A stretch of 64,000 bases of DNA from Candidatus Tectimicrobiota bacterium (GTDB lineage Bacteria > JACPUC01), in assembly GCA_016192455.1 (NCBI GenBank), contig JACPUC010000011.1, positions 159,711 through 223,710 on the forward strand, in the 5' to 3' direction. Every line of letters starts with the position of its first letter. The stretch's first letter is position 1. The position numbers and the translations under genes are program-made. A model generated the notes under the pieces. That model saw only the letters and a list, made by a program, of their open reading frames with translations, ran no database searches and was not told the origin of the DNA. This document shows positions 3,816 to 5,973 of this stretch, in pieces.

Positions 3816-3893
3816 CGGGGCGTGGCGCAGCCTGGCTAGCGCACCTGCTTTGGGAGCAGGGGGTCGGAGGTTCAAATCCTCTCGCCCCGACCA
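3816..3893 (+). tRNA. tRNA-Pro (anticodon UGG), CCA encoded
   Basis: The acceptor stem CGGGGCG (3816-3822) pairs perfectly with CGCCCCG (3883-3889). The discriminator is A3890 and the CCA is genome-encoded (3891-3893). The anticodon stem CCTGC/GCAGG encloses the loop TTTGGGA with anticodon TGG at 3851-3853 and G37. The T arm holds GGTTCAAATCC. The 3' end is repeated at 5928-5973, so this tRNA is the probable attachment site of the next 2 kb. Confidence 0.96.
3864..3893 (+). repeat. Left attachment-like repeat (3' end of tRNA-Pro)
   Basis: These 30 nt of the tRNA 3' half (T arm, acceptor strand, CCA) recur at 5944-5973 with one mismatch (C3883 versus T5963). The similarity extends upstream, with about 39 of 43 positions matching between 3851-3893 and 5931-5973. 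The spacing of 2,080 bp and the altered base composition in between fit an attL/attR pair left by a tRNA-targeted integrative element. Confidence 0.7.
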
Positions 3894-4264
3894 ATAAAAT
3901 CAATTGGTTATAAGAATCTGACTCTTCATCATTGAAAGTAGGTTGCCCAAGAATCGGGGGCTACCAATGCTGCGAAAAGTGGCTCTAGGACTGTCAGGCC
4001 AAGGCGGCAGGAACGCCTGCTAGAGCGCGTGCTAACTGGCGGCGACATCACCCACTTCCAGGAGAACGTCGTCGCCGTGAATGTATCTATCCGTCTCATG
4101 CAGGAAATCGACGGGGCATAAAAGAGCATGGCAGCAGGCCAGACGCACTCGTTAACAAATCGTAGATTGGCTGAGGCGTTTTTCACGGCTTAATCTGGAA
4201 GACCGATCTTAATGTCATCTGAAAAGCGATTACCATTCCACCTGTCAATACTTTCTCTTCCCCT
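3894..4264 (+). other. Island left flank without an intact gene
   Basis: A 371-bp gap between the tRNA and the DAC-domain gene. One reading frame (3942-4121, stop TAA 4119) stays open for 59 codons and looks gene-like in its second half (for example ERLLERVLTGGDITHFQENV), but it has no clear start codon or ribosome binding site. It may be the end of a decayed gene. I do not recognise it and see no integrase motif. The last 80 bp are AT-richer and lead into the DAC gene. Confidence 0.35.
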
Positions 4265-5698
4265 ATGAATCCCCTTATCCACATAAGCGCCTTTCAGCTG
4301 ATTGAGGGGCTGCGCTCTGGCCTATCACGATTCTCTGGCCCAAGCAGGGTAGCCCTCTTAATGGCAGTAAATTCGAATGATCCAATCAAAGTATACGATT
4401 ATCATTGCTTATTAGGTCCCAAGAAAAAAGAATTGAAAAATAGGTACATTGATACGGATGTATGGAAGCGTCATGTCGAGAGCAGTACTCGTTCTTGGGG
4501 AAGTAATATTGAGAAAAATCTAGGCGGGATTGAGATACCAGGACTCATCTCGTGGGGTTCGCAATCACGGAACGTCTACTACCAGATGTGGTTTACAGAG
4601 AATCACCAGAATCTCTGTTCCGAAGGTCCTACAGAAAGATGGTTGCAAAAGGCAGCATCGCTGCGATCTAGTGATACGGGCAACATGGCTGCTTTGATGT
4701 CAGGTGCATCTAGCGGAGCGATAGAGTGGTATGGTAATGGAGCAATTCAGTTCCACTTACAAGCTAGGCTGCAGTCTCTACTTGGTACAGATTCGAAGCT
4801 TCCAATCGAGAAAATCTTGAACGCCATCTTGGCGGTATCTATAACTAGGGAAGAAGGCAAGAAAGTATCAGGTAATCTTGTCTTTATTGAAACTAAACAA
4901 CTAGAAACACTTACTTTCATAAGCCGCTTTCCTGGTGGGTCCGTTCCCCAATTGGAACGTATCAAGCACCTTCGAAAACTCATTACATCAGTAGATCGAA
5001 CAAATGCTTACCTTTGCTCAGATGGACATATTGTAACTGGCATAATTCAAAACCAAATACCAGAGTATGCGATCCTTGCAAGATATGACGCTGGGCGAGG
5101 AGAACTCCTTATTAACGATGAGCCAGTATGCACTTTTGCAGATGGGCGATTTTGCGGGACTCATTTGAGGCCAGATTTATTTGCTTTGCAAGAAGCTCTC
5201 ACTACGCTTGAAGCAGATCATAATTATCAACCTGAATTCCTTAAAAGGATATTGGCTCTAGTCGAGACTGCTTGGGAACGACAGCATGGTTGTACACTTG
5301 TGCTGGATGTAGGTGTAAATTCCCTTAGTCTTCCTGGCCAGCTCCTTGATCCACCCTTGGACCTTAGTACAGATGAGAATTTATCTCTAGCCAAGTCAAT
5401 GACCATGATTGATGGAGCCTTGCACATAGACTTCAGGAATCAGATACGTGCATTTTCATGCCTCCTGGATGGACTAGCGACGCCAAATGAAGATCGGTCA
5501 CGAGGTGCACGATATAACTCGGCCCTTCGATTCAGCAAGAGCCACGCCGGCACGATTGTGGTCGTCATATCAGAGGACGGTCCGATTTCGATCTTTTCGA
5601 ACGGAGAAGATTTGACTGCTTCACCAAGCTGGCCAGACATGGAGAGGATTGATATTGATCCACCAACCTTATTTCAATGGTTGCAGGATGATTCTTAA
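4265..5698 (+). CDS. Stand-alone protein with a C-terminal DisA/CdaA-like (DAC) domain
   Basis: A 477-residue soluble protein with no signal peptide or membrane helices. The C-terminal region matches the diadenylate cyclase fold: DGALHI (about residues 383-388; DGA is the metal/ATP loop), then RGARYNSALR (413-422) at the place of the GTRHRAA motif, then VVVISEDGPISIFSNG (about 432-447), matching the VSEE-G-Is---G strand pair. DAC enzymes join two ATP into c-di-AMP. The usual RHR is RYN here, so the product or the activity may differ. The N-terminal 370 residues are unrecognised and probably regulatory. The start ATG lacks a purine-rich leader. The gene is clearly less GC-rich than its neighbours and sits alone between the tRNA-Pro repeats, so recent transfer is likely. 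A role in signalling or defence is inference only. Confidence 0.65.
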   Translation: MNPLIHISAFQLIEGLRSGLSRFSGPSRVALLMAVNSNDPIKVYDYHCLLGPKKKELKNRYIDTDVWKRHVESSTRSWGSNIEKNLGGIEIPGLISWGSQSRNVYYQMWFTENHQNLCSEGPTERWLQKAASLRSSDTGNMAALMSGASSGAIEWYGNGAIQFHLQARLQSLLGTDSKLPIEKILNAILAVSITREEGKKVSGNLVFIETKQLETLTFISRFPGGSVPQLERIKHLRKLITSVDRTNAYLCSDGHIVTGIIQNQIPEYAILARYDAGRGELLINDEPVCTFADGRFCGTHLRPDLFALQEALTTLEADHNYQPEFLKRILALVETAWERQHGCTLVLDVGVNSLSLPGQLLDPPLDLSTDENLSLAKSMTMIDGALHIDFRNQIRAFSCLLDGLATPNEDRSRGARYNSALRFSKSHAGTIVVVISEDGPISIFSNGEDLTASPSWPDMERIDIDPPTLFQWLQDDS

Positions 5699-5927
5699 TC
5701 GGCTCATTAGATATTTGTGTGGGTAACAGGGTGGAGATCGAGGCTTCCGGGGGCGCGAATGAACGGAGACAACGTAGAAGGGGTTGCCCCACTGCCCCAA
5801 CATTGCCCAAATGAAGTGAGTAATTGTGATAATCTGTGAAACTCATTGAACTGCTCGTTGGCTGTAAGTTATTGAGACATAAGGCAAACTTCCGCCTGCT
5901 TGACATTTCCTTGCCTTGTGGTAAGCT

Positions 5928-5973
5928 CTTTAGGAGCATGGGCTCGGAGGTTCAAATCCTCTTGCCCCGACCA
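5928..5973 (+). repeat. Right attachment-like repeat (partial tRNA-Pro copy)
   Basis: A truncated copy of the tRNA-Pro 3' half ending in GCCCCGACCA, with no acceptor 5' strand and no D arm, so it is not a functional tRNA. It is offset by 2,080 bp from the intact gene. It marks the right edge of the low-GC island and lies within the 347-bp gap 5699-6045, which otherwise holds no gene that I can support. MntA begins 72 bp further on. Confidence 0.7.

Follow-up and report, generated by a model that had tools for sequence, protein, structure and literature searches.

A probable integrative-element remnant at tRNA-Pro(TGG) of a Candidatus Tectimicrobiota bacterium retains one intact DAC-domain gene

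The window analysed here is a 64-kb stretch of the draft genome of a Candidatus Tectimicrobiota bacterium. Near its start lies tRNA-Pro(TGG), the only tRNA that ARAGORN finds in the window, and the 3' end of this gene recurs downstream as a displaced copy. Between the two copies lie a frameshifted gene fragment and a single intact gene, which codes for a 477-aa protein with DACND, DACNH and DAC domains (Table 1). The genome is a MAG-like draft, 88% complete in 31 contigs, and absences from it are provisional.

Table 1. Features at the tRNA-Pro(TGG) locus, in window positions
Feature	Position	Strand	Evidence
tRNA-Pro(TGG), intact	3816-3893	+	ARAGORN; Rfam RF00005, 62.8 bits
attL-like repeat, anticodon loop to CCA of tRNA-Pro(TGG)	3848-3893	+	42/46 identical to 5928-5973
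Pseudogene: type IIG/ISP restriction-modification C-terminus, frameshifted, 5' part lost	3950-4121	+	C-terminal profile
DACND-DACNH-DAC cyclase gene, intact, 477 aa	4265-5698	+	PF21749 139.6, PF21750 65.6, PF02457 49.8 bits; AF2 pLDDT 90.2
DACND, probable sensor domain, aa 7-174	4283-4786	+	Pfam; weak fold matches, Z ~7
DACNH, probable sensor domain, aa 183-275	4811-5089	+	Pfam
DAC catalytic domain, aa 337-448	5273-5608	+	Pfam, motif alignment, fold match
DGA motif, D383-G384-A385	5411-5419	+	DAC domain alignment
R-Y-N in the place of RHR	5510-5518	+	DAC domain alignment
attR-like repeat, displaced and drifting copy of the tRNA-Pro 3' end	5928-5973	+	Repeat alignment; tRNA 5' half absent upstream

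The first-pass annotation had reported a second copy of the final 30 nt of tRNA-Pro 2,080 bp downstream, with a single mismatch, and this was borne out (3864-3893 against 5944-5973); the 39 of 43 matches that it gave over a longer stretch are a shorter cut of the alignment in Table 1, which extends to 45 of 51 with the flanks. The two copies have the same orientation and differ by four substitutions in 46 nt, one of them within the 30-mer. Even with up to six mismatches allowed, the 30-nt tRNA end has just two matches in the 64-kb window, and about 1e-11 such repeat matches are expected by chance. We read tRNA-Pro(TGG) as the integration target, the gene having been restored by the island's end.

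A different explanation, which the first-pass annotation had itself raised as an objection, is that a tandem tRNA-Pro gene has decayed into the second repeat and that the insert arrived by some other path; in other genomes tRNA genes (Arg, His) do cluster after tRNA-Pro. The 5' half of a decayed tRNA gene would, however, be expected to be about as decayed as its 3' half. The second copy retains 91% identity over the 46 nt of the 3' part, while the 33 nt upstream of the match agree with the tRNA 5' half at 7 of 33 positions in register and at 12 of 33 at the best shift, against a random mean of 14.6. Because the 5' half has left no trace there, we take the second copy to be a displaced tRNA end and reject a decayed tandem gene as its source. 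The two copies also closely bound the low-GC DNA, and the tandem-gene explanation retains hardly any credibility.

The enclosed DNA had been described as less GC-rich than its surroundings, in agreement with our measurements: GC stands at 0.70-0.75 before the island, at 0.42-0.49 in the core between the repeats and at 0.63-0.66 after it. The DAC gene has a GC3 of 0.40, and four neighbouring genes range from 0.86 to 0.94. Across 72 related loci, the GC of the cyclase gene tracks the GC of the DNA around it (residual standard deviation 0.022), and the window gene falls 0.224 below this expectation (z about -10 against the 72 family loci). Because its cyclase gene is some 10 standard deviations low while GC in the related loci follows the host, the insert is foreign to its host. 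A strong GC shift in a draft assembly, with short near-identical repeats at both joins, could also come about if a fragment of another organism had been joined in through the 30-nt repeat. The copies differ, however, at four positions, one of them inside the 30-mer, the GC on either side resembles that of the host, the insert is interior to a 224-kb contig, and a second island of the same kind is present elsewhere in the genome. Misassembly through the repeat is therefore unlikely, and we give such an artefact very little weight.

The gene fragment inside the island, also noticed in the first pass, is real and could be identified. Across two frames it codes for RIGGYQCCEKWL then RVLTGGDITHFQENVVAVNVSIRLMQEIDGA, where a stop codon ends it. 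A profile built from six homologous C-termini matched both pieces (E 5e-4 for 3950-3985 and 1e-8 for 4014-4115), collinear and in two frames, and these are the best two matches among all six frames of the window. Three of the six profile homologues are annotated as type ISP restriction-modification (R-M) enzymes or adenine methyltransferases, and the two homologues that were scanned both match the PADLOC REase_MTase_IIG models nearly to their end. The island must therefore formerly have carried an R-M gene and, given this frameshifted type IIG/ISP C-terminus, the 2.08 kb are most likely what is left of a larger island with defence cargo; the stump is the best evidence for a remnant over a complete small element. 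Just outside the second repeat, at 6046-6390 (+), lies an intact MNT-type nucleotidyltransferase gene (PF01909; PADLOC PDC-S09), followed by roughly nine residues (LDENDAACL) that may be what remains of a HEPN/DUF86 partner. On a Synechocystis plasmid the gene order runs type ISP R-M, nucleotidyltransferase, DUF86, helicase.

Islander recognises islands in tRNA genes by a fragment that extends to the gene's 3' end, lies downstream in the same orientation and is not a full tRNA, with an interval of 2-200 kb and an integrase (PMC4383910). An integrase gene contained in the interval or overlapping it marks a putatively active island, and an empty site in close relatives is a supporting feature (PMC4383910). 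In the case of the window island, the fragment extends to the 3' end of the gene from a downstream position, is oriented as tRNA-Pro(TGG) and is less than the full tRNA gene, and the 2,080 bp barely exceed the lower length bound (PMC4383910). No PF00589 match was found near the island, as against five elsewhere in the genome; the first pass had likewise seen no integrase there. Because no integrase lies inside, we file the island as a remnant and not as an active island. An integrase remnant at either end was considered and dropped: translating 3894-4300 and 5680-5935 in six frames yielded peptides without a convincing match in the collected loci, and two of these peptides had no match in Pfam.

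The genome has three homologous tRNA-Pro genes, tRNA-Pro(TGG) included. On contig 2, the 3'-terminal 31 nt of tRNA-Pro(GGG) recur without a mismatch 5,337 bp downstream of that gene, which adjoins a tyrosine-recombinase gene with two in-frame stops. This second tRNA-Pro island (contig 2, 283950-289364; L006:7951-13365) comprises the broken tyrosine integrase and a 1,418-aa ORF without a Pfam match. No second copy of the tRNA-Pro(CGG) 3' end was found nearby, and none of the three genes has an intact integrase in the assembly. Given the islands at tRNA-Pro(TGG) and tRNA-Pro(GGG), elements using the tRNA-Pro target appear to have entered the lineage at least twice. On contig 20 (~307904-308558; L161:4904-5559), an uninterrupted 372-aa tyrosine recombinase frame lies directly downstream of tRNA-Met and convergent with it; a second copy of the tRNA-Met end was not found up to the contig end.

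Outside this genome, the order rph-rdgB-tRNA-Pro(TGG), at 2314-3893 in the window, is kept in four genomes of other, distant lineages (L147-L150), and in the DNA examined from these four there is no second copy of the tRNA-Pro(TGG) 3' end. This synteny, which comes from distant genomes and not from close relatives, supports an ancient and normally unoccupied site after rph-rdgB-tRNA-Pro(TGG). In the distant genomes tRNA-Arg(TCT) and tRNA-His(GTG) often come next after tRNA-Pro(TGG); in the present genome the best matches to both are on other contigs.

The first-pass annotation had left two versions of the island side by side, the remnant of a larger one and a tiny element mobilised in trans. 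In the second version, a compact mini-island that never had its own integrase would have relied for its movement, like a minimal satellite, on the integrase that a related tRNA-Pro element supplied; the island does have both att-like ends and lacks an integrase, and elsewhere in the genome there is a related tRNA-Pro element, whose integrase is broken. The island DNA nearest the tRNA is, however, only the end of an R-M gene, truncated and frameshifted, the att copies differ at 4 of 46 positions, and no second copy of the island was found in another genome, the nearest relatives of the DAC gene reaching 43% identity in unrelated contexts. Because of the truncated R-M gene, the four repeat substitutions and the lack of an intact integrase at any tRNA-Pro gene, we favour the remnant and consider transfer in trans improbable.

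The island reading put forward in the first pass is supported by the 3'-fragment geometry, the foreign insert and the second tRNA-Pro island in the genome, and the 2.08 kb are very probably the decayed remnant of an integrative element at tRNA-Pro(TGG) that bore R-M and cyclase genes. From the repeat geometry, the foreign composition, the R-M pseudogene, the intact cyclase frame and the absence of an integrase, all directly observed, we infer the integration event, the original size of the element and the order of its deletions. An integrative element would have become part of the chromosome by site-specific recombination into the 3' end of tRNA-Pro(TGG), catalysed by a tyrosine recombinase, the element's own end restoring the tRNA gene (attL) and the original 3' end being pushed downstream (attR). 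Its cargo would have included at least a type IIG/ISP R-M gene and the DACND-DACNH-DAC cyclase gene. Later deletions would then have taken away the integrase and the greater part of the R-M gene, together with whatever other cargo there was, leaving an immobile 2.08-kb remnant with the cyclase alone intact.

That the island holds one intact gene, coding for a DAC-domain protein, was correctly seen in the first pass: the reading frame is unbroken, the invariant family residues are present, and DACND, DACNH and DAC follow in that order, each above its Pfam gathering score. The AlphaFold model matches the diadenylate cyclase CdaA over residues 316-453 (Z 15.8, 2.5 Å over 129 residues) and DisA with a Z of about 14, while the N-terminal DACND domain gives middling GAF- or longin-like matches (Z ~7). 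As regards the canonical diadenylate cyclase motifs, DGA is present and RHR is replaced by R-Y-N. This replacement is a trait of the whole subfamily, R-[YF]-N being found throughout and Asn418 being invariant in 51 members. By family, the protein probably converts 2 ATP to a c-di-AMP-type cyclic dinucleotide in response to engagement of its N-terminal sensor domains. No other DAC-domain protein was found in the 88% complete assembly.

DACND proteins are rare in bacteria at large, having turned up in 2 of 386 sampled genomes, one of these being the window genome. Within one phylum 9 of 148 genomes have them; named records point to Desulfobacterota. A tree of 84 proteins places the window protein beside a homologue from Candidatus Obscuribacterales (Melainabacteria; 100/99), apart from the other 82 and not nested within Desulfobacterota, although both branches are long and their exact place is unsure. 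There is no conserved gene neighbourhood around the family, the commonest neighbour, a sensor kinase-like protein, being present at 20 of 75 loci at varying offsets. A tRNA lies near other family members at 1 of 37 loci (tRNA-Leu, 3.8 kb off). The close subfamily gave no phage matches and three weak plasmid matches, and three viral contigs bear a related DACNG/DACNH type rather than the close DACND subfamily.

The present role of the gene can be considered apart from its arrival, and an anti-phage function would be compatible with an origin as island remnant. The DAC gene might be a standing anti-phage gene, a DS-2-like or Panoptes-like nucleotide guard, that selection has maintained since the rest of the island decayed. 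In the DS-2 anti-phage system the DAC is required, and mutating its predicted catalytic residues abolishes protection (PMC13092281). The DACNH-DAC module is common to the window protein and the DS-2 component DS2_3 (NF053872; 69.2 bits over profile positions 225-487), an R-M remnant lies alongside, and related DACNG-DACNH-DAC proteins are found in prophage contigs, one of them adjoining an integrase. The DS2_3 score, however, falls well short of the 630-bit equivalog cut-off, the island holds no CBASS gene and no SMODS (PF18144) match, and hence no CBASS CD-NTase, was found in the 88% complete genome, and DACND-type relatives sit mostly among ordinary metabolic neighbours, in DNA with the GC of their host; only a few of 113 immediate neighbours of the subfamily match defence models. 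We regard an anti-phage role as possible but doubtful. In Desulfobacterota the DACND subfamily looks like a resident chromosomal regulator and not a defence gene, and we lean towards general regulation as its usual role. The expectation of defence or signalling cargo holds for the R-M stump and only in part for the DAC gene, whose relatives in the subfamily are for the most part resident chromosomal genes elsewhere. There is also a small chance that the gene represents a stand-alone, horizontally moved cyclase module, in which selection kept the R-Y-N cyclase alone, for phage protection or a new nucleotide signal, in a host with no other detected DAC or CBASS. As regards the viral contigs, a DACNG-DACNH-DAC protein within L169:1-2963 scores 578 bits to DS2_3, has the motif RGARFN and adjoins a phage integrase; at L171:5362-7170 a related cyclase lies amid apparent phage structural genes, judged by eye to be portal- and protease-like.

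The locus offers a clear case of an island worn down to one gene, in which an ordinary tRNA-island route would have introduced a single signalling enzyme into a phylum-level outlier with no other detected enzyme of its class. The change from RHR to R-[YF]-N across the subfamily, common to a homologue of a validated DS-2 component, raises the question of product and mechanism for this branch of DAC proteins.

Among known systems, Islander tDNA islands share with the window island a restored tRNA, a 3' fragment displaced downstream with its orientation kept, a length above 2 kb and a fragment outside any conserved coding domain; the window island differs in its lack of an integrase, its single intact cargo gene and its drifted att copies (PMC4383910). 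Type IIG/ISP R-M enzymes (PADLOC REase_MTase_IIG) have the C-terminal signature GGYQ...KWL ... DI.H[FY]Q ... LM..ID in common with the window stump, which is only a frameshifted C-terminal piece. The DAC fold and DGA motif of CdaA and DisA are likewise present in the window protein, but with R-Y-N for RHR and with other N-terminal sensors. The DACND-DACNH-DAC proteins of Desulfobacterota (PF21749/PF21750/PF02457) match it in full architecture, in D-G-A and R-[YF]-N and at about 35-42% identity, but are encoded in host-like DNA, almost always without a nearby tRNA, whereas the window gene has a low GC within a high-GC genome and a product that groups with the Melainabacteria homologue. Finally, the DS-2 component DS2_3 (NF053872; PMC13092281) resembles the window protein in its C-terminal DACNH-DAC module, and the near-full-length DS2_3 homologue in viral contig L169 has, with RGARFN, the same motif variant as the window cyclase; DS2_3 itself begins with DACNG in place of DACND, and the window protein lies far under its equivalog cut-off in a genome where no CBASS partner was found.
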